A DNA stretch of 64,000 nucleotides from Nonomuraea soli. Lineage in GTDB: Bacteria; Actinomycetota; Actinomycetes; Streptosporangiales; Streptosporangiaceae. Location: NCBI RefSeq assembly GCF_013761175.1, contig NZ_JACDUR010000009.1, positions 62,001 to 126,000 on the forward strand. Reading direction: 5' to 3'. A program made the position numbers and the translations under genes. Positions 41 through 43,080 of this stretch are shown piece by piece (within the stretch, counting starts at the first letter, position 1; every line of letters begins with the position of its first letter). The notes under the pieces were generated by a model. The model ran no database searches and was not told the DNA's origin. It saw only the letters and a program-made list of their open reading frames with translations.

Positions 41-3000
41 ATGTCCCTGCGGACGCGCCTAGGCGTGTCAGCGCTGGCTCTCGCCGTCCTGTCCACGACG
101 GCGGGCCCGGCCGGTGCGGCGGGATCCGTCGCGGGCAGCCGGCCTGCCGGCGCGGCGACCACGGCGACCACGGCGACCACGGCGACCACGGCGACCAGCG
201 TCACCCTGGTCACCGGCGACCGCGCGCTGGTCAGCACCGGCGCCGGCGGCAAGACCTCGGTCACCCTCGCCACCGATGAGCCCTATGCCACCCGTCAGGT
301 CGGCGACGACCTCTATGTGGTGCCCCAGAGCGCCGCCGCGATGATCGCGGCGGGACGGCTCGACGAGCGCCTGTTCAACGTCTCGGGCCTGATCCGCCAG
401 GGTTACGACGACGCCCGCAGGGACACCCTGCCGCTGATCGTGGACGGGGCGGCGGCGCTGCCGCGTTCCGCGGATGTGACGACGCGGGCCCTGGGTGCTT
501 CAGGCGCCACGGCGGTGCAGGTCAAGAAGACGGCGGCGGGCGCGTTGTTCGACGGTCTGACCGCCGCCAGGTCGATGGCCAAGATCTGGCTCGACGGCCG
601 TGTCTCCGGCGTCGATCTGGACCCGGGCACGGGTGTCGGCCAGACCGGCGCCGAGCAGGTGTGGAAGGCGGGCTTCGACGGCACCGGCACCAGGATCGCC
701 GTGCTGGACAGCGGCTACGACCCCGGCCATCCGGATCTGAAGGGCCAGGTCGCCGCCGCCGAGGACTTCACCGGCAGCGGCACCGCCGCCGACGGGGACG
801 GCCACGGCACCCATGTGGCCTCGACGGCTCTGGGCTCCGGCGCGGCCGACGCCTCGCGCAAGGGCATGGCGCCCGGGGCGAAGCTGCTGGTCGGCCGGGT
901 GCTCGACAGCTGGGGCGGCGGCCAGGAGTCGTGGATCATCGCGGGCATGGAGTGGGCCGTCGCCCAGGGCGCCGATGTGATCAACATGAGCCTGGGCAGC
1001 CAGGAGCCCACCGACTGCACCGACCCGATGAGCGCGGCGGCGCAGCGGCTGAGCGAGCAGAGCAGGAGCCTGTTCGTCATCGCGGCGGGCAACTCGGCCG
1101 CCCGTGAGACCGTCAGCTCTCCCGGCTGCGCGGCCGGGGTGCTGACCGTCGGCGCCGTCGACGCGAAGGGCGAGACCGCGGGCTTCTCCAGCCGCGGCCC
1201 CGTCCTGGGCGACCACCGGGTCAAGCCGGAGATCGCCGCACCCGGCGTGGAGACGGTCGGCGCGGCCAACGGCAGCGTCGGCGGCATCCACTATCTCAAG
1301 ATGTCGGGCACCTCGATGGCGTCGCCGCACGTCGCGGGCGCCGCGGCGCTGGTGCGCCAGGCTCACCCCGGCTGGACGGCGCAGCAGGTGAAGGCCGCCC
1401 TGGTCTCCGGGGTCAAGGCGAACGCCAAGGACCACGTCTACGCGCAGGGCGCGGGCGAGTTGTCCGTGCCCGGCGCCATCGCGGCGAGCGTGCAGGGGCC
1501 GGGCACCGTCGACCTGGGCAGCTTCGCCTGGCCGCACGACGACGGCGAGCGCGCCACCAAGGAGCTCGTGTACACCAACCTCGGTGACCGCGAGGTCAGG
1601 CTGCAGCTGAGGATCGAGGACCTGGCCGGGAAGAACGGCGCCAGGATCCCGCGCGACTCGCTCAAGCTCGGCCGCCACTCGATCACCGTTCCGGCGGGCG
1701 GCACCGCCACGGTGCCGGTCACCGCCGACCCCGACGGCCGTTTCGCCGACGAGGCCTACGGCGAGATCGGCGCCCGCGTCGTCGCCACGGGCCGCGGGGG
1801 CGTGACCGTCACCACGGCGGTCGGCTTCTGGGTGGCCCCGAAGATCGTGAAGCTCACCGTCAAGACGATCGGCCGCGACGGCAACGCCCCCACGGGCATC
1901 AGTTTCGTCGACGTCGTCGGCATGGACGAGGAGCGCGCCACCCGCGCCTACGTGGACGGGAGCCCCGAGACCGTCTACGAGCTGCCGGTCGGCCGCTACG
2001 CGGTCAGCGCCCTGATCCACACCGCGCCCGCGCTGGCCTACCTCGGCGACCCCGAGCTCGAGCTGGAGCGTGACACCACCCTGGTCTACGACGCCCGCAC
2101 GGCGCTGCCGATCCAGGTGAAGACCGACCGGCCTTCCACGCTCTCCTCCGGCGTCCTGCAGTACGGCCGCTGGTGGGACCGCTGGCAGACCGGCGGCGGC
2201 GTGACCGGCCCGATCACCGAGTTCTACGCCGCGCCCTCCTCGACCAGGGCCCGGCTGGGCGGCTTCGAGATGGGCGCGTACCTGCGCGCGACCTTCGACG
2301 GCGGCGTCTACAACCTGGCCTTCATCGACGAGGGCCGGGTCGGCCGCGACCAGTCGCACACCGTCCGCGACAGCCGGCTGGCCGCCGTCGAGGAGACCTG
2401 GTACGGCAAACAGGCCGACGAGCCGGCGGGCGACTACCTGGCGGTGCACCGTCCGTGGTCGGCCAACTCGTTCGGCGGCTGGGACGTGGACTTCACGGTG
2501 CCGGGCAAGCGCCTGTCGCTCTACAGCCCTGACGTCACCTTCGAGCAGATCGCCTATCGCGGCGGCCACCCGCTGTGGCGGGAGACCTGGTACGACATCC
2601 CGCGCACCTACGAGCCCGGCCAGAAGCGCGGCGCCACGTGGCTGCGCATGCCCTCCATGACGGGTCAGTTCCCCGGCTACCACATCGCCGAGCGGCAGGG
2701 TGACCTGATCGGCTACTCGACCTCCCGGTGGAAGGACTCCGACCCCGACCACTACGGGGCCGGCGCCTACTTCGGCGACGCGGGCAACCTGACCCTCAGC
2801 AAGGACGGCCAGGTCCTGGAGACCAGCGCCTGGCCCTTCGGCCAGTTCCTGATCACCGACGGCACCTACGAGCTGACCGGCCGCCAGCTGCGTTTCGGCT
2901 CCTACGACGGCGGCGACCAGGGCGCCATGACCACCACGACCTACCGCTTCACCACCACCCGCCCCCAGGGCGAGGAGGTCGTGGCGCTGCCGTTCCTGGT

Positions 3001-3331
3001 GGTCGGCTACGACGCCGAGGTGGACTCGCGCAACACCGCGGCGCCTGACGCGGTGTTCCCGGTGAGGATCTCGGTCACCGGTCAGCCCGACTACGACGCC
3101 GGTGCGATGGCCTCGGTCAAGGCGTGGGTGTCGACCGACGACCAGAAGGTCTGGGCCGAGGACGAGAGCGCCTGGAGCGAGGTGCCGGTCGCCTTCCGGG
3201 ACGGCGCCTGGGTGGCGAGCGTCGACAACGCCGCCGCGTCCGGCAGGCACGTGTCCATCAAGGTGAGCGCGGTCGACTCGCACGGCAACGCGATCACCCA
3301 GGTGGTCAACCGTTTGTACGGCGTGCGATAG
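41..3331 (+). CDS. Secreted subtilisin-like serine protease (S8 family), 1096 aa
   Basis: An exported endopeptidase of the subtilase family. The N-terminus has a Sec-type signal peptide (basic MSLRTRLG, hydrophobic stretch, AGA/AAG cleavage region near residue 26). The catalytic triad is visible: Asp223 in AVLDSGYDPGHPDL, His255 in DGHGTHVAS and Ser425 in SGTSMASPHVAG, with the oxyanion Asn in IAAGNSA. Residues 27-200 would be a propeptide, the protease core spans about 205-480, and a beta-rich C-terminal region of about 600 residues follows, the size seen in large actinomycete S8 proteases. The start is backed by an AGGAGG box at 29-34. A stem-loop follows the gene, so it is probably a single-gene unit. 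The substrate cannot be told from the sequence. Confidence 0.93.
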   Translation: MSLRTRLGVSALALAVLSTTAGPAGAAGSVAGSRPAGAATTATTATTATTATSVTLVTGDRALVSTGAGGKTSVTLATDEPYATRQVGDDLYVVPQSAAAMIAAGRLDERLFNVSGLIRQGYDDARRDTLPLIVDGAAALPRSADVTTRALGASGATAVQVKKTAAGALFDGLTAARSMAKIWLDGRVSGVDLDPGTGVGQTGAEQVWKAGFDGTGTRIAVLDSGYDPGHPDLKGQVAAAEDFTGSGTAADGDGHGTHVASTALGSGAADASRKGMAPGAKLLVGRVLDSWGGGQESWIIAGMEWAVAQGADVINMSLGSQEPTDCTDPMSAAAQRLSEQSRSLFVIAAGNSAARETVSSPGCAAGVLTVGAVDAKGETAGFSSRGPVLGDHRVKPEIAAPGVETVGAANGSVGGIHYLKMSGTSMASPHVAGAAALVRQAHPGWTAQQVKAALVSGVKANAKDHVYAQGAGELSVPGAIAASVQGPGTVDLGSFAWPHDDGERATKELVYTNLGDREVRLQLRIEDLAGKNGARIPRDSLKLGRHSITVPAGGTATVPVTADPDGRFADEAYGEIGARVVATGRGGVTVTTAVGFWVAPKIVKLTVKTIGRDGNAPTGISFVDVVGMDEERATRAYVDGSPETVYELPVGRYAVSALIHTAPALAYLGDPELELERDTTLVYDARTALPIQVKTDRPSTLSSGVLQYGRWWDRWQTGGGVTGPITEFYAAPSSTRARLGGFEMGAYLRATFDGGVYNLAFIDEGRVGRDQSHTVRDSRLAAVEETWYGKQADEPAGDYLAVHRPWSANSFGGWDVDFTVPGKRLSLYSPDVTFEQIAYRGGHPLWRETWYDIPRTYEPGQKRGATWLRMPSMTGQFPGYHIAERQGDLIGYSTSRWKDSDPDHYGAGAYFGDAGNLTLSKDGQVLETSAWPFGQFLITDGTYELTGRQLRFGSYDGGDQGAMTTTTYRFTTTRPQGEEVVALPFLVVGYDAEVDSRNTAAPDAVFPVRISVTGQPDYDAGAMASVKAWVSTDDQKVWAEDESAWSEVPVAFRDGAWVASVDNAAASGRHVSIKVSAVDSHGNAITQVVNRLYGVR
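155..199 (+). repeat. In-frame 9-bp tandem repeat in the protease propeptide
   Basis: Five copies of GCGACCACG (the last imperfect) encode an Ala-Thr-Thr run directly after the signal peptide. The unit length is a multiple of three, so copy number can change without a frameshift. It is likely a flexible linker. Confidence 0.85.
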
Positions 3332-4576: not shown

Positions 4577-7500
4577 ATGGATCAAGACCAATCGTTTCGA
4601 GTGCTCGGTTCACTCGAAATCATCATTGGCGCGAACCGGGTCGCCGTCCGCGGAACCCGCCAGCAGATCATCATGGCGACGCTCATTCTGCGGACCGGCC
4701 AGGTGGTCTCCATCGACCGCCTGGCCGAGGCCATCTGGGGCGACCACCTGCCGCCGACGGCCAGGAACCAGGTCGTCATCTGCGTCTCCAGCCTGCGCAA
4801 GGCCCTGGCCGACGCGGGCGCCCCCGCCGACCTGCTGGGCACCAACGCGCCCGGCTACGTGCTCAACGCCTCCCCCGACCAGGTCGACTCCCTGCACGCC
4901 GACCGGCTGGCGGCCAGGGCGCGCGCCGCGGAGGCCGCCGGCGATCTGGCGGAGGCCGCCCAGCTGTTCGCGCGCGCGTGCGGGTTGTGGCGTGGACCGA
5001 TCCTGGCGGGCATGGAGAGCTCCTTCGTGGAGGGCGAGGCCCGCAGGCTGGAGGACCGGCTGCTCACGCTGACCGAGGAGCGGCTGCGGGTGGAGCTGGC
5101 CCTGGGACGTCACCGCGAGCTCGCCGACGACCTGGCCGCGTTCGTGGAGGCCAATCCGCTGCGCGAGCTGCTGCGTGCCCAGCTCATGCTGGCGCAGTAC
5201 CGCTCGGGCCGCAGGGCGGCGGCCCTCGACACCTACCGGGCGGGCCGCGAGCACCTGATCGCCGAGCTCGGCATCGAACCCGGCACCGAGCTGCGCGAAC
5301 TGCACGAGGCGATCCTGAACGACAGCCCGGAGCTGACCCTCGCCGATCCCCCGCACAAGCCGCCGCCCGCGCCCTCCGCCGAGGAGGCGCACCCGCCGGC
5401 CGCCCAGGATCCGGCGCCCGCGCAGCTGCTGGCGGACGTGCCGCACTTCACCGGGCGCGCCGCCGAGGTCGAGCAGCTCGACACCCTGCTGGAGGAACGG
5501 TCCCGCCAGGGCCTGCTGACCATCGTGCTGATCACCGGCATCGGCGGCGTGGGCAAGTCGGGCCTCGCGGTCCACTGGGCGCACCGCGTGGCCCACCGCT
5601 TCCCCGACGGCCAGCTGTTCGCCGACATGCGCGGCTACGACCTCAACGCCGAACCGCTGAGCGCCGGGGCCGCGATGGACCGGTTCCTGCGCGCCTTCGG
5701 CGTGCGCGGCGAGCGCATCCCCGAAGACCTCGACGAGCGTGCCGCCCAGTTCCGCACCGTGATCGGCAAGCGCAGGGTGCTCGTCCTCCTCGACAACGTG
5801 CGCATGATCGAGCAGGTCAAGCCGCTGCTGCCCGGTTCCGGCCAGTGCTGCGTGATCGTGACCAGCCGCGACCCGCTCGGCGACCTGATCGCCCAGGAGG
5901 GCGCCACCGAGGTGCGCCTCGACGTGCTCGGCGCCGACGACTCGGCCGCCCTGCTCACCGGCATCGCCGACTCGGCGCTGGTCGGCGACGACCCGAACGC
6001 CACGGGCGCGCTCGGCGCGTTGTGCGACGGCCTGCCCCTGGCCCTGCGCATCGTGGGCGCCAAGCTCACGGGCCGCTCCTACTGGACCCCTGCGCGCCTG
6101 GTCAAACGCCTGACCGACGAGCGCCGCAGGCTCGACGAGCTCAGCTACGGGCAGATGACCGTGCGCGCCAGCTTCGCCCTCAGCTACCGCGACCTGAGCC
6201 CGGACGCCGCGCGCATGTTCCGCAGGCTCGGCCTGCTCAGCGCGCCCGACTTCGCCGCCTGGGCGGGCGCCGCTCTGCTCGACATCGGCGAGAGCGAGGC
6301 GGAGGACCTCATCGAGCAGCTCGTCGACGCCCAGATCCTCGAGGTCGTCGGCCGCGACTTCTCCGGGCAGATCCGCTACCGCTTCCACGACCTGGTCAGG
6401 CTCTACGCCAGGGAACGTGCCCAGGCGGAGGAGGACCCGCGGGAGTACCCCCTGGCGCTGAGCCGTACGTTGAGCGCGTGGCTGGCGCTGGCGGAGGAGG
6501 CCCACGAGCGGGAGTACGGCGGAGCCTTCACCCAGTTGCACAGCCCGGTCGAACGGTGGCGGCCCTGCGTGCCGGAGGCGCTGGTCGACCAGCCGCTCGA
6601 CTGGCTCGACGCCGAGCGCAGCGCCCTGGTGGCGGCGGTCTCCCAGGCGGCGGCGCTCGGGCTGCACGAGTTGTGCTGGGACCTGGCGGTCACCTCGACG
6701 ACCCTGTTCGAGGCGCGCAGCTACTTCGACGACTGGCGCCATACCCACGAGGTGGCGCTGTCGGCGTCCAGGGCGGCGGGCGACCGGCGCGGCGAGGCCG
6801 CCATCCTGTGCTCGATGGCCAGCATGTACCTGTTCCAGCAACTGCTGGACAAGGCGGGCGAGCCGCTCGACAAGGCGGTGGCGTTGTGCGAGGAGATCGG
6901 CGAGCCGTACGGTCTGGCGCTGGCGCTGCGCAACCTGTCGCTGCTCGACCGGCTGGCGGGGCGGTTCGGGGAGGCGCTCGACGGCTTCGGCCGGGCCAAG
7001 GAGATCTTCGCGCGGGTCGGCGACCGCTACGCCGAGGCCCACGTGCTCGGCGGCATCGCCCAGGTCCACGTGGACCAGGGGCGGCTGGAGCTGGCCGAGC
7101 CGATGCTCAGGCAGGCGCTGGAGGTCTTCCGCGAGTTGCGCAGCGAGCGCGGCCAGGCGCAGATCCTCAACCGGCTCGGCGAGATCCTGCTGCGCAAGGG
7201 CCGGCTCGTGGAGGCCGAGTCGGCCTGCGAGGCCGCCCTGGTGCTGGTGCGCGAGCGCCGCGACGTGATCGGCCAGGCCTACATCCTGTGCGGCCTGGGC
7301 GAGATCCGACTCATGCAGGAGCGGCCCGAGGCTGCCGCCGAGATCCTCAACGAGGCTCTGATCATCGCCCGCCAGGTGCGGGAGCGGTTCGTGGAGGCCA
7401 AGGTCTGCCTGGCCCTGGGGGCTCTGGAGTCGGGCTCAGGACGGCCGGGCGAGGCCGCGAGGTGGATCGACGCCGCCTGCGCGATCTTCGCCGAGCTGGA

Positions 7501-7684
7501 GATCCGGCTGTGGCGTTTCCGCTCGCTCGTGGCGCTGGGCGAGGTGCTGGCCCTGCAGGAAAAGGATCAGGAGGCTCTGGCCGCACTGGAAAGCTCCCTG
7601 ACCCACTGCGCCGATCAGGAATCGGCCGCGCCGGTCAGGGAGCTCATCGAGGAGATCAGGTCCAGGTGCTGTCGTCCAGTGTGA
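4577..7684 (+). CDS. AfsR/SARP-family regulator with NB-ARC and TPR domains, 1035 aa
   Basis: Probable pathway-specific activator of the lipopeptide cluster. Order of parts: OmpR-like winged helix (residues 5-95, FRVLGSLEI ... QVVICVSSLRKAL), bacterial transcriptional activation domain (about 100-250, ending ELRELHEAIL), a proline-rich linker, an NB-ARC STAND ATPase (about 290-600) with an intact P-loop GIGGVGKS (Lys327), and a helical TPR-type C-terminus (about 690-1030). STAND regulators are held inactive until the repeat region senses a ligand. SARPs usually bind direct repeats next to the -35 region. The ATG at 4577 starts exactly at the winged helix. The 3' end overlaps, tail-to-tail by 29 bp, a small secreted-peptide gene; I infer that the mature peptide may be the TPR ligand. 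Confidence 0.9.
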   Translation: MDQDQSFRVLGSLEIIIGANRVAVRGTRQQIIMATLILRTGQVVSIDRLAEAIWGDHLPPTARNQVVICVSSLRKALADAGAPADLLGTNAPGYVLNASPDQVDSLHADRLAARARAAEAAGDLAEAAQLFARACGLWRGPILAGMESSFVEGEARRLEDRLLTLTEERLRVELALGRHRELADDLAAFVEANPLRELLRAQLMLAQYRSGRRAAALDTYRAGREHLIAELGIEPGTELRELHEAILNDSPELTLADPPHKPPPAPSAEEAHPPAAQDPAPAQLLADVPHFTGRAAEVEQLDTLLEERSRQGLLTIVLITGIGGVGKSGLAVHWAHRVAHRFPDGQLFADMRGYDLNAEPLSAGAAMDRFLRAFGVRGERIPEDLDERAAQFRTVIGKRRVLVLLDNVRMIEQVKPLLPGSGQCCVIVTSRDPLGDLIAQEGATEVRLDVLGADDSAALLTGIADSALVGDDPNATGALGALCDGLPLALRIVGAKLTGRSYWTPARLVKRLTDERRRLDELSYGQMTVRASFALSYRDLSPDAARMFRRLGLLSAPDFAAWAGAALLDIGESEAEDLIEQLVDAQILEVVGRDFSGQIRYRFHDLVRLYARERAQAEEDPREYPLALSRTLSAWLALAEEAHEREYGGAFTQLHSPVERWRPCVPEALVDQPLDWLDAERSALVAAVSQAAALGLHELCWDLAVTSTTLFEARSYFDDWRHTHEVALSASRAAGDRRGEAAILCSMASMYLFQQLLDKAGEPLDKAVALCEEIGEPYGLALALRNLSLLDRLAGRFGEALDGFGRAKEIFARVGDRYAEAHVLGGIAQVHVDQGRLELAEPMLRQALEVFRELRSERGQAQILNRLGEILLRKGRLVEAESACEAALVLVRERRDVIGQAYILCGLGEIRLMQERPEAAAEILNEALIIARQVRERFVEAKVCLALGALESGSGRPGEAARWIDAACAIFAELEIRLWRFRSLVALGEVLALQEKDQEALAALESSLTHCADQESAAPVRELIEEIRSRCCRPV

Positions 7685-7802
7685 CGATGGGGCCGGGGGT
7701 GGGGGCTGCGGAGACGGCGGTGGCGGCGGTGCCCGCGACGGGGGCGGCGACCAGGCCGGCTACCAGGACGAACTTCGCGCTCCACGCCATCCGCTTCGAC
7801 AT
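7656..7802 (-). CDS. Small secreted peptide precursor (48 aa), candidate signalling peptide
   Basis: Too short for routine gene calling but well supported. Translation from ATG 7802 begins MSKRMAWSAKFVLVAGLVAA: a basic start, a hydrophobic core and an Ala-rich cleavage region (TAVSAA), then a short polar tail PTPGPIVTLDDSTWT and TGA. A GAGGG box precedes the ATG at suitable spacing. The mature product would be about 13-16 residues with an acidic/Trp end and no Cys, so it is not an evident lanthipeptide or defensin. It is convergent with, and overlaps by 29 bp, the gene of the TPR-containing SARP. Its promoter carries the 23-bp element that is also found before the XRE regulator at 41717. I infer an exported autoinducing peptide read by a TPR regulator, in the manner of the RRNPP systems of Firmicutes. 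Function is unproven. Confidence 0.72.
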   Translation of the reverse strand: MSKRMAWSAKFVLVAGLVAAPVAGTAATAVSAAPTPGPIVTLDDSTWT

Positions 7803-7831
7803 CTGATTCCCTCTCTCGTCGTCTGAGAAGG

Positions 7832-7875
7832 ACGGTATGGAGCGCCGGATACCCGTCGATATCGCGTCGGCTACC
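7832..7875 (-). promoter_or_regulatory. Promoter of the peptide gene with a 23-bp shared element
   Basis: On the minus strand, positions 7875-7853 hold a 23-bp element that begins GGTAGCCG and contains GCGATATCGACGG. Then come 15 bp and a TACCGT -10-like box (7837-7832). The same element, with 22 of 23 bases identical, lies at 41646-41668, also followed by 15 bp and TACGGT. An extra GGTAGCCG copy lies 11 bp upstream (7886-7879); that is the repeat period typical of SARP sites. The element overlaps the stop codon of the amidase gene. Confidence 0.68.
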
Positions 7876-9142
7876 GGCCGGCTACCAGCCCTCCGTCGAG
7901 CTGGAGAACGGCGCTGAGCAGCACGTCAGCGCCCTGGGTGAGCTGGTCGGGCGGGGTGTGCTCATCGGGTGCGTGGCTGACGCCGCCCGTGCTCGGCACG
8001 AAGATCATGCCGATCGGGGCGATGCGGGCGACGATCTGGGCGTCGTGCCCGGCCCCGCTCGGCAGCCGGTGCGAGCTCAGCCCGAGCTCGGCGGCGCAGC
8101 GGGCGATCAGGTCACGCAGGCCCGGATGGCAGTCGACGGGCGTGGTGCGTGCCCCGAGGCCGATCTCGATCTGGGTGCCGGTGGCCTTGGCGATCTCCTG
8201 GGCCAGCTCGCCCAGGCGGGCGACCGCGTCGTCGAGTGCCGAGGCCGTCACGTCGCGGAACTCCACGCCGAGCCGTACCAGGCCGGGGATGACGTTCCAC
8301 ATGCCGGGCTCCACCGAGCACGTCCCTGTGGTGGCGCGCAGCACGATCCCCTCGTCGGCCGCGATGGAGCGGACGGCCAGCAGCACACGCGCGGCGGCGT
8401 CGAGCGCGTCGACCCGGTGCTCCATGGGCGTGGTCCCGGCGTGGCCGGCGACGCCCTCGACCGTCACGGTGAGGTTCAGCCGTCCCGTGATCGACTCCAC
8501 CACGCCGATCGGCACGCCCAGCCGCTCCAGCACGCTGCCCTGCTCGATGTGCAGCTCCAGGTAGGCGGCGATCTCGTCGCGGGTCCAGGCCGCCTCGTCG
8601 AGCCGCAGGTGGTCGCCGCCGACGGCCGCCAGCAGGTCGGCGATGGTGATGCCCCGGTTGTCGCGTTCCTCGCCGAAGCCCGCGGGCAGCGCGCCGGTGA
8701 AGCCGTGCGCGCCGAGCATGCCCATCGTGCCGTGGGCGCCCTCCTCGTCGCAGAAGGCCACCACGACCAGCGGATGGCGCAGCCGTACACCCTCCTCGTG
8801 CAACACGCGGGCGACCTCGACGGCGGCGAGCACGCCGTAGGCCCCGTCGTAGGCGCCGCCGTTGACGACGGTGTCGATGTGGGAGCCGAGCACGAGCGCC
8901 GGGGCCGTGCCGTCGGCGCCCCGCCTCCTGCCGATGAGGTTGCCCGCCGCGTCGACCTCGACGGCCAGGCCCGCCTCCAGCATCAGCCCGGCCACGTAGG
9001 CGCGTCCCTGGACGTCCTCGGCGGTGAAGGCCAGCCGGGTCACGCCGCCGCCGGGGCCGCGGCCGATGTCCCCGAGGGCGGCGATGTGCCCGTTGAGCCG
9101 TCCGGCGTTGACGCGGGGCCGGGTCCCCTGGACGACCGTCAT
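7871..9142 (-). CDS. Zn-dependent M20 amidase (hydantoinase/carbamoylase family), 423 aa
   Basis: Member of the N-carbamoyl-amino-acid hydrolase / beta-ureidopropionase / allantoate amidohydrolase group, which cleaves ureido or amide bonds in the cytoplasm using two metals. Metal ligands are visible in GSHIDTV, GAYDGAYG, DEEG, LELHIEQG and GVSHAPDE; the dimerisation part carries GHAGTTPM. The length is normal. The start is set at ATG 9142, which overlaps the MbtH stop (ATGA); a longer reading would only translate the MbtH gene in another frame. It is the last gene of the seven-gene NRPS operon. A beta-ureidopropionase activity would yield beta-alanine, which fits the PanD gene of the sister operon, but processing of a product precursor is equally possible. 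Confidence 0.85.
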   Translation of the reverse strand: MTVVQGTRPRVNAGRLNGHIAALGDIGRGPGGGVTRLAFTAEDVQGRAYVAGLMLEAGLAVEVDAAGNLIGRRRGADGTAPALVLGSHIDTVVNGGAYDGAYGVLAAVEVARVLHEEGVRLRHPLVVVAFCDEEGAHGTMGMLGAHGFTGALPAGFGEERDNRGITIADLLAAVGGDHLRLDEAAWTRDEIAAYLELHIEQGSVLERLGVPIGVVESITGRLNLTVTVEGVAGHAGTTPMEHRVDALDAAARVLLAVRSIAADEGIVLRATTGTCSVEPGMWNVIPGLVRLGVEFRDVTASALDDAVARLGELAQEIAKATGTQIEIGLGARTTPVDCHPGLRDLIARCAAELGLSSHRLPSGAGHDAQIVARIAPIGMIFVPSTGGVSHAPDEHTPPDQLTQGADVLLSAVLQLDGGLVAGR

Positions 9143-9315
9143 GGCGTGCGCAGCGACTTGGGGCGCATGTCGGTCCACACCTGGCCGATGTGCTCCAGGC
9201 AGGCCTCGCGCTCGCCGGCGAACCCGGTCGGGCTCCAGCCCGGCGGCGGATCCTGGCTCTGCGGCCACAGCGAGTACTGCTCCTCGTCGTTGATCACCAC
9301 GGCGTAGGTGCTCAC
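9139..9315 (-). CDS. MbtH-like protein, 58 aa
   Basis: A small activator/chaperone that binds adenylation domains of NRPSs. The family signature is complete: NDEEQYSLWP, PPGW, then ACLEHIGQVWTDMRPKSLR. The three conserved tryptophans are present. Translation starts at GTG 9315, one base after the stop of the thioesterase gene, and the TGA overlaps the ATG of the amidase. Four A domains are encoded in the window but only this one MbtH protein, so it probably serves one or more of them in trans. Confidence 0.95.
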   Translation of the reverse strand: MSTYAVVINDEEQYSLWPQSQDPPPGWSPTGFAGEREACLEHIGQVWTDMRPKSLRTP

Positions 9316-41633: not shown

Positions 41634-41689
41634 CGATATCGGCCGGGTAGCCGCCGCGATATCGACGGATAACACCCCCTTCCTACGGT
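41634..41689. promoter_or_regulatory. Divergent promoter/operator with 23-bp shared element
   Basis: Two CGATATCG palindromes lie 23 bp apart (41634-41641 and 41657-41664). Facing right, the 23-bp element 41646-41668 (GGTAGCCG, then CGCGATATCGACGG) precedes TACGGT (41684-41689) by 15 bp, the same layout as the peptide-gene promoter at 7832-7875. Facing left, GGCCGATATCGCCGGTGAT reads toward the lyase/kinase operon. So the regulator gene and the precursor operon appear to share one control region. Confidence 0.68.
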
Positions 41690-41716: not shown

Positions 41717-42442
41717 GTGCAGACCGCGTTGCTGCCTGACGGCCAGAGATTCGCCCAGCTGCTGCGCACGCATCGTGACAGGGCGCGGCTGACCCAGGAG
41801 GAACTCGCCGAACGTGCCCGCATGAGCGTGCGCGCCCTGCGCGACCTGGAGCGGGGCCGTACCCGTTATCCCCACCGCACCTCCGTGCACCGCCTGGCGG
41901 CGGCCCTTGAGCTGACCGGCGAGGAGCGGGTGGCCTTCGAGTCGACGCCGCCGCGCTCGGCCGGCGGTCCTGGGCGGGCCGCGTGGGAGCCGCCCCCGGC
42001 GAGCGCCAGCATCGCCCTGCGCTGGGTGCCGCTGCTGAGGGAGGTCGAGGACGCGGTCTGCACCGGGGCGGGCGGCGGCCATCCGGCGGTGGTGACGATC
42101 GCCGGACCCGGTCGCGGCACGTTCGCCGTGCAGTGTGCCCACGTGGTGAGGGTCAGGCTGGACCTGGAGGTGATCTACGTGGATCTCGGACGCGAGGTCC
42201 GCGACGTCGAGACCCTGTGCGCGCAGGCCCGCCAGGCCCAGCTGGAGCGGGCGCTGGACGGCAGGCGCTGCCTTCTCGTGGTGGACGGGGTGCGCGCGGG
42301 TGACGATGTCGGGCCGCTGCTCCGGCTGGGCTTCACCGGCGTGTTGATCGCCGCGGAAACGACCGGCGGGACGGACGGCGGGGCGAGCCGCGTGCCGTAC
42401 GGCGGGCCGGACGGGGTCACGCGGCGGGTCACGCTGACATGA
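41717..42442 (+). CDS. XRE-type regulator with a degenerate STAND domain, 241 aa
   Basis: The N-terminal 75 residues are a standard XRE helix-turn-helix (LTQEELAERARMSVRALRDLERGRTRYPHR). In full-length relatives an NB-ARC ATPase and repeats follow. Here the rest is short: the loop at about 128-138 reads AGPGRGTFAV, lacking the P-loop lysine, and there is no repeat region. It therefore probably binds DNA without ATP control. GTG 41717 has a GAGGAGG box 6 bp upstream. The stop overlaps the next ATG, pairing it with the NarL-like regulator. Its promoter carries the 23-bp element shared with the secreted-peptide gene. Confidence 0.8.
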   Translation: MQTALLPDGQRFAQLLRTHRDRARLTQEELAERARMSVRALRDLERGRTRYPHRTSVHRLAAALELTGEERVAFESTPPRSAGGPGRAAWEPPPASASIALRWVPLLREVEDAVCTGAGGGHPAVVTIAGPGRGTFAVQCAHVVRVRLDLEVIYVDLGREVRDVETLCAQARQAQLERALDGRRCLLVVDGVRAGDDVGPLLRLGFTGVLIAAETTGGTDGGASRVPYGGPDGVTRRVTLT

Positions 42443-43080
42443 GCGAGATCCGGGTGCTGGTCTGCCATCCCGAGCAGCTGCTGCGCTCCGGGATCAAGGC
42501 GCTGCTGAACTCAGAGCCGGGAGTGCGTGTGGTGGGCGAGGCGGCCGACGGCTTCGACGCGCTGTCCAAGGCGCGCGGGCTGCGGCCGGACGTGGCGCTC
42601 ATCGAGGAGCGGCTGGTGGGGCTGCCCGGGGTCGAGGTCACCGAGCGGCTGGCCGACGGCGTGCGCTGCATCATCCTCATCGAGCATCCGGACACCATGT
42701 TCGAGGCGGTCAAGGCCGGGGCCCGCGGTTTCCTGCTGCACTCCAGCGGCCAGGACGAGCTGCTGGGCGCGGTGCGGGCCACCGCCAGGGGCGAGGCGTT
42801 CTTCGCCCCGCAGGTGGCCAGCAGGTTCCTGCAGCGCTTCGAGAGCGGGCTGCGCCAGCCGGCGACCGCGGTGGCCGACACGCTCACCGAGCGGGAACGT
42901 GAGGTGCTGGGGCTGGTGGCGGAGGGCATGGACAACGCCGAGATCGCGGCCAAGCTGTACGTCAGCAGGGCGACGGTGAAGTTCCACGTGTCGAACCTGC
43001 TGGTCAAGCTGGGTCTGCGTGATCGGCTGCAGATCGCGGTGTACGCCCACCGGGTCGGGGTGGTGGGTGCGCTGAGCTGA
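42439..43080 (+). CDS. NarL-type response regulator with an atypical receiver, 213 aa
   Basis: Receiver-like domain (1-120) joined to a LuxR/NarL helix-turn-helix (about 147-205, LTEREREVLGLVAEGMDNAEIAAKLYVSRATVKFHVSNLLVKL). The receiver lacks its phosphorylation chemistry: VCHPEQ stands where VVDDH is expected, Glu (ALIEERLVG) replaces the phosphoacceptor Asp, and His replaces the conserved Lys in FLLHSS. No histidine kinase is encoded nearby. Such orphan regulators in antibiotic clusters work without phosphorylation, sometimes by binding the end product. It overlaps the XRE gene by 4 bp (ATGA). Confidence 0.88.
   Translation: MSEIRVLVCHPEQLLRSGIKALLNSEPGVRVVGEAADGFDALSKARGLRPDVALIEERLVGLPGVEVTERLADGVRCIILIEHPDTMFEAVKAGARGFLLHSSGQDELLGAVRATARGEAFFAPQVASRFLQRFESGLRQPATAVADTLTEREREVLGLVAEGMDNAEIAAKLYVSRATVKFHVSNLLVKLGLRDRLQIAVYAHRVGVVGALS

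Follow-up and report, generated by a model that had tools for sequence, protein, structure and literature searches.

RRNPP systems of Bacillota (Rap-Phr, NprR-NprX, PlcR-PapR, and AimR) combine an intracellular TPR receptor, an adjacent gene for a small secreted propeptide, and a short signal. By the criteria of the class, the propeptide is exported by the Sec route. Here we describe a pair of genes in a 64,000-nucleotide stretch of the genome of the actinomycete Nonomuraea soli (contig NZ_JACDUR010000009.1, positions 62,001 to 126,000; hereafter the window). A gene for a 48-residue peptide precursor lies tail to tail with a gene for a SARP-NB-ARC-TPR regulator. The pair appears to be a peptide hormone system of a kind not described before, which would switch on its own biosynthetic cluster. 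It resembles RRNPP systems in the adjacent small propeptide with predicted export, the proposed TPR receptor, the proposed short signal, and a TPR superhelix similar to the Rap and NprR structures. It differs from them in occurring in Actinomycetota, in a core built around a tryptophan (W core), and in the multi-copy cores of some precursors. In addition, the receptor has 1035 residues and carries SARP and NB-ARC domains, whereas PMC10075063 gives 250–500 residues for RRNPP receptors. We therefore describe the pair as working in an RRNPP-like way and do not count it among the RRNPP systems.

The regulator has its domain order in common with large SARPs such as AfsR (8jke/8k60), which act at direct heptamer repeats with a period of 11 bp ahead of target promoters. 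FxSxx-COOH and HaaT TPR proteins, which are NB-ARC-TPR relatives according to their NCBIfam names, are linked to a small precursor peptide. For AfsR, binding of an inducer to the TPR sensor "remains elusive" in the account of PMC10936776. MalT and other STAND regulators differ from the present regulator in that the inducer described in the same source, maltotriose, is a small molecule and not a peptide. NosP and NocP exhibit SARP activity responsive to ligands from a ribosomal precursor peptide, but these ligands are the thiopeptide product under control and an intermediate, not a dedicated exported signal, as summarized for NosP in a review (PMC10972967); the title of the primary paper likewise speaks of peptidyl ligands. 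Actinomycete signals are typically described as small molecules, as in PMC10075063. No paper naming the W-peptide/SARP pairing was found in an open-access PMC library, a scope outside which bioRxiv as such and most subscription journals lie.

Organization of the regulator–peptide pair

The Trans_reg_C, BTAD, NB-ARC, and several TPR models all score above their Pfam cut-offs in the regulator, as expected from an earlier note on the window that had proposed a winged helix, an activation domain, NB-ARC, and TPRs. This is the domain set of large SARPs (AfsR type, STAND), that is, an OmpR-type winged helix followed by BTAD, NB-ARC/NOD, and TPRs. Homology to the AfsR structure spans residues 7–966 (phmmer E 2.5e-123), and the NCBIfam AfsR-like model gives 608 bits, under its cut-off of 1430. 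The scores with the NCBIfam models HaaT (338 bits, cut-off 1125) and FxSxx_TPR (77 bits, cut-off 300) are both far below the cut-offs. A common origin of peptide-linked NB-ARC-TPR proteins is possible in light of this likeness.

The precursor, MSKRMAWSAKFVLVAGLVAAPVAGTAATAVSA/APTPGPIVTLDDSTWT, begins with a basic segment, continues with a hydrophobic stretch and an AxA-type cut site, and finishes in the tail APTPGPIVTLDDSTWT, whose last residues are LDDSTWT. A ribosome-binding site (GAGAGAGGG) ends 6 bases before the ATG. Positions 7656–7684 are common to the two genes, such that the last nine peptide codons and the stop codon fall inside the regulator gene. The 48-codon gene, its ribosome site, the signal peptide, and the 29-bp tail-to-tail overlap are thus all seen where the earlier note had placed them. 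A rule-based score sets the signal-peptide cut after residue 33, and a cut after residue 32 is equally plausible. The predicted mature tail is therefore 15–16 residues long, within the 13–16 residues suggested before.

Related loci, denoted by L and a number, carry similar genes. The DSTWT ending recurs in L103, L104, L105, L106, and L171. In L104 and L105 it is kept without gene overlap, the stop codon lying 13 bp past the regulator. The ratio of nonsynonymous to synonymous differences (pN/pS), pooled, is 0.39–0.66 over five peptide sets (0.17–1.1 for single pairs), in line with the earlier expectation of coding-like codon changes. In L106, the frame of the regulator orthologue is broken near its 3′ end (sequencing error or decay), and a peptide frame ending in GDSTWT persists beyond the break.

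Conservation of the pair

Relatives of the regulator comprise 38 named loci, hits from the 104 of 250 family genomes that match the TPR part at E ≤1e-40 (seven candidates were scored per genome in this survey), and later additions. Small open reading frames (ORFs) adjoining each regulator were scanned for a signal peptide, a ribosome site, and a W motif. L042, with 23 bp of sequence beyond the regulator, L208, which has no regulator ORF, and repeats of one regulator in several loci are left out of the counts.

A strict filter for convergent peptides matches 41 of 126 regulators and, run on the other strand, none of the 126. One of the 41 (L001) is an incomplete copy of the regulator found in the window. 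Control rates for the same filter were 22/2520 (Markov shuffles), 32/3056 (random positions in the genome), and 6/1290 (positions in the window); some of these positions fall on true peptides. The filter was written after many of the 126 loci had been seen. Therefore, we applied it unchanged to 47 unseen regulators, which gave 12 matches and 0 on the other strand. These regulators derive from 48 loci, among which L208 lacks a regulator ORF and L176 and L178 are identical.

In a tree of 116 regulators, the peptide label is restricted to one clade of 85 rows. A subclade of 34 rows (later 54) was considered peptide-less and this assignment was rejected, as many of its members carry a W-peptide gene upstream of the regulator and in the same direction, with endings such as NTPWG, NPWG, NPWD, and GDPWG. 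The subclade is thus unfit as a negative group, and distant SARPs serve as the proper control. With both arrangements allowed, an automatic test finds a peptide at 92 of 134 clade regulators (window excluded), 52 downstream and the others upstream. Two upstream matches (L146 and L202) were judged false. Six further downstream peptides were recognized by eye (L101, L106, L120, L188, L192, and L216), and other W-bearing ORFs in L202 and L127 were left uncounted.

By contrast, none of 38 distant large SARPs, a set that does not include S. coelicolor AfsR, passes any peptide rule (90/134 vs 0/38, Fisher p 1.7e-15, relatedness ignored). In the window and at the clade regulators that have one, the peptide gene directly adjoins that of the proposed receptor. 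The small gene is thus conserved beside orthologous regulators, a point on which the earlier note had made its proposal depend. A rule-based signal peptide is present in 83 of the 90 accepted automatic matches, for which it was itself a criterion. In L122, L126, L131, and L141, the upstream W-ended ORFs show no clear signal peptide, which may reflect decay, another export route, or a role inside the cell.

The W core and the precursors

The general core reads [N/D/G]-x-[P/H/T]-W-[G/T/D/M]. Among 90 distinct C-termini, W-3 is N/D/G in 74, W-1 is P/H/T in 82, and W+1 is G/T/D/M in 76, a profile that is partly by construction, since the filters select for a W motif and, in the upstream rules, for a W close to the C-terminus. 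At positions that were not required, P/H/T precedes the W in 42 of 50 downstream peptides and G/T/D/M follows it in 40 of 50; the corresponding values for upstream peptides with a signal peptide are 30/30 and 27/30. The (D/S)xTW-type end anticipated by the earlier note holds as one local form of this broader core.

Where a locus has two or three precursors in tandem, the copies have NMHWGN in common and little else, indicating that the core is the selected part. Moreover, some precursors repeat the core. L216 has five DTHW with SGGQVVA-type spacers and L200 has four AEPWG; three copies occur in L156 (GPGDPWG), L160 (DFPW[G/S]), and L149 (GPPWG). Three GTPWG and two SLWG are found in L188, and two DTHW in each of L181, L182, and L187. 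This architecture is difficult to account for if the active product is anything but the short core.

Predicted operators with a period of 11 bp

Upstream of the peptide gene, four tandem 11-bp units precede a TACCGT-like –10 (Table 1). A 22-mer from this promoter, GTAGCCGMCGCGATATCGACGG, occurs at exactly two sites in the 10,085,083-base genome when up to three mismatches are allowed, and its reversed control at 0. The sites are 7853–7874 (−), in the peptide promoter, and 41647–41668 (+), beyond the far end of the NRPS-PKS (non-ribosomal peptide synthetase–polyketide synthase) genes and before a regulator gene. The earlier claim that the peptide promoter shares an element with the cluster is thereby borne out at the level of sequence.

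A 22-bp model was built from four peptide promoters, with the peptide site of the window in training and the second site not. In the window it scores the two sites at 30.8 and 28.4 bits; the next site has 11.5 bits, and the best of five shuffles 16.5. The element also lies upstream of the peptide in L103, L104, and L105, all of them training sequences. At the place in L104 equivalent to the second site, a weak site scores 15.4 bits, within the shuffle range (16.5, with a slightly different matrix). An operator scan of L106 found no site.

Other peptide promoters contain other repeated motifs with the same period. TATAC pairs occur at 15 sites at period 11 and at 0 sites at periods 8–10 and 12–16 in 1.13 Mb. 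For AAAGCG pairs, period 11 gives 4 sites and none of nine other periods gives any; for GATA pairs in 1.53 Mb, it gives 21 sites, against 0–3 at nine others. All three motifs were chosen from promoters that had already been inspected, so that the seed sites count by construction; the Mb figures are gross, as the fetched loci partly overlap. New TATAC sites, not among the seeds, lie before distal tandem precursors of L084/L109, L085, L091, L092, and L095. By eye, 13 of 15 TATAC sites and about 15 of 21 GATA sites precede W-peptides; a lenient automatic downstream-ORF rule gives 14/15 and 20/21, respectively. One further TATAC site (L102) precedes a small secreted protein of the VLAGHIAVD type. 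A protein with this ending and no W core is encoded at L102:3854 (−) and in the downstream region of L091.

These motif tests are stronger than a generic spacing test, which is only mildly positive for 34 promoters, with spacings 11 and 12 tied. For 45 downstream promoters, spacing 11 led (10 at ≥8 of 9 letters and 21 at ≥7). For 29 upstream promoters, it was tied with three spacings at ≥8 letters (2 each) and led at ≥7 (11). A period of 11 bp is that of the classical SARP site as described in PMC5930380 and PMC10972967. Judged by their letters, the 11-bp direct repeats at many, not all, peptide promoters are of the classical SARP-operator type.

The TPR superhelix

The AlphaFold2 model of the arm and TPR part has a confidence (pLDDT) of 94.2. 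Structural matches of the TPR superhelix include peptide-bound Rap proteins and NprR, and also eukaryotic TPR proteins; structure 4gyo is that of RapJ. As ligand positions of the TPRs, we took 2, 5, 6, 9, 12, and 13. In W-peptide regulators, conservation is 0.67 at the concave positions vs 0.39 in helix B (p 9e-8). In 31 aligned distant SARPs, the values are 0.42 and 0.39 (p 0.33). The concave TPR face is thus conserved in W-peptide regulators and not in distant SARPs as a group. Large SARPs, which resemble the regulator in domains and in the period of its predicted operators, differ from it in this respect and in lacking a W-peptide by the present rules.

Neighbouring genes and further pairs

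In L103 and L105, the pair is accompanied by several genes of the cluster; L104 and L106 keep fewer of them, and L107–L110 have other neighbours. Since the neighbours differ among clades, the pair is the unit. An M20 hydrolase was weighed as a possible component of the module and dropped: among L103–L110, its homologue is adjacent in L103 and L105 only, and it goes with the cluster genes, not with the pair in other clades. A subtilase was likewise considered as part of the module or as the peptide protease, and rejected, as no homologue was matched in L103–L110. The ten neighbours tested in L107–L110 include no shared modifying enzyme and no radical SAM domain. In this respect, as in the low model scores, the pair is unlike the FxSxx-COOH and HaaT systems.

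The same genome has further pairs: one in L111 (NFHWT) and two in tandem in L112 (CDMYWTDD and a weaker core, NPWPNPD). On one Herbidospora contig, two adjacent SARPs are paired with separate peptides, SMPWV for one and NMPWG for the other.

Table 1 Features of the peptide–regulator locus and its surroundings in the window
Feature	Position	Strand	Basis or remark
SARP-NB-ARC-TPR regulator, 1035 residues	4577-7684	+	Proposed peptide receptor and activator; Pfam, NCBIfam, phmmer
Arm and TPR superhelix, residues 620-1035	6434-7681	+	Proposed peptide groove; AlphaFold2 model, structure matches, conservation
Peptide precursor gene, 48 codons	7656-7802	-	ORF; comparable small genes next to related regulators
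Signal peptide, residues 1-33 (cut after 32 or 33)	7704-7802	-	Rule-based score
C-terminal core DSTWT	7659-7673	-	Proposed mature signal; conservation, core profile
Ribosome-binding site of the peptide gene	7809-7817	-	Read from the sequence
Four tandem 11-bp units GTAGCCGGCCG GTAGCCGACGC GATATCGACGG GTATCCGGCGC	7842-7885	-	Predicted SARP-type operator of the peptide gene
Second copy of the 22-bp element	41647-41668	+	Between a lyase gene, 41592 (-), and an HTH gene, 41717 (+)
HTH_31 gene and LuxR-type response regulator gene	41717-43080	+	Behind the second predicted operator
M20 hydantoinase/carbamoylase-type hydrolase	7871-9268	-	Upstream of the peptide gene
NRPS-PKS biosynthetic cluster	10072-39179	.	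Presumed output; Pfam
Large subtilase (S8)	41-3331		Signal-like start; two genes before the regulator

Discussion

We put the probability at roughly 0.75 that the pair is a peptide autoinduction module that works like RRNPP systems with a new class of receptor. According to this model, the precursor would be exported by the Sec route, as its signal peptide suggests. Proteolysis would then free a short W peptide, here DSTWT or perhaps a few residues longer, as the conserved core and the precursors with several copies of it suggest. An oligopeptide permease would re-import the peptide, and the means exist, as the genome encodes 25 SBP_bac_5 (oligopeptide-binding) proteins. Inside the cell, the peptide would bind the concave TPR face of the neighbouring regulator, the face that is conserved. 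Binding would release a STAND-type autoinhibition, so that the SARP domain could bind the 11-bp direct repeats, which are known as sequence. The SARP domain would activate the peptide gene and the biosynthetic cluster, closing a positive loop through which density or confinement would be sensed.

In other genomes, parallel pairs have distinct cores of their own and may therefore be private channels. It is quite likely that such pairs form a pheromone class in Actinomycetota, with single- or multi-copy precursors sensed intracellularly by SARP-STAND-TPR activators, and with several private channels per genome (three or four here), each serving its own cluster.

The sign of the effect bears on the closest alternative. 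Because an operator is predicted at the peptide promoter and multi-copy precursors occur, the peptide probably activates rather than inhibits, and an inhibitory peptide is possible. Inhibitory pheromones occur in some RRNPP systems, and the regulator could activate the peptide gene and in turn be inhibited by the peptide, limiting or timing cluster expression. The operator at the peptide promoter is compatible with either sign. Inhibition of AfsR by its NOD and TPRs is lifted by ATP binding in the part of PMC10936776 that deals with it, where no peptide is mentioned. However, multi-copy precursors and tandem genes suit amplification better, and we regard negative feedback as rather unlikely. 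It is improbable that the small gene encodes an exported effector or product (a bacteriocin, a toxin-like peptide, or a RiPP, i.e. a ribosomally synthesized and post-translationally modified peptide) under SARP control, with the TPRs sensing something else. SARPs often adjoin product genes, and the TPR part is distantly like the TPR proteins of cyclophane RiPP systems (HaaT and FxSxx in NCBIfam). Nevertheless, no common tailoring enzyme was seen among the neighbours tested, which differ between the clades examined (L103–L110), the pair of the window adjoins an NRPS-PKS cluster, and in the peptide conservation is confined to about five residues, while the proposed receptor groove is itself conserved.

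Nine codons and a stop codon overlapping the regulator, in GC-rich DNA that gives many spurious ORFs, could also produce a signal-like ORF by chance. Such a fortuitous origin of the small gene is contradicted by its conservation and is very improbable: DSTWT persists in L104 and L105 despite the absence of an overlap there, the filter matches about 1% of the controls, the unseen regulators gave matches, and pooled pN/pS is below 1.

Several observations weigh against the autoinduction module. With the peptide alone as query, a search of 298 family genomes and viral contigs gave noise only and no convincing relatives, because only about five residues are conserved; a search anchored on the regulator was therefore needed. 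About 38 of 134 clade regulators are without a W-peptide. Some of these hold little upstream DNA, but L163 and L164 (another family) and L165 have enough and show none. The upstream peptides were found after the convergent ones and under looser rules, and 7 of the 90 accepted matches, all upstream and in one subclade, passed only a rule that requires no signal peptide. The peptide ends at W or W+1 in 18 of 50 downstream peptides; the others are tailed, mostly by 6–9 residues. The TPR superhelix matches many TPR folds, eukaryotic ones included, and the choice of motifs from known promoters tempers the period-11 counts. Finally, promoters of CDSxWM subclade peptides show no clear 11-bp repeats; those of L080, L083, and L086 seem to contain an inverted-repeat-like CACC...GGTGAT stretch instead.

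If the autoinduction module is correct, these peptides would be the first natural class of inducers for AfsR-type regulators. The peptide code could be read from DNA, which would make the question of the AfsR inducer testable with cheap synthetic peptides. Silent clusters would then be switchable with synthetic pentapeptides as pathway-specific inducers, and the pairs would provide orthogonal parts for engineering.

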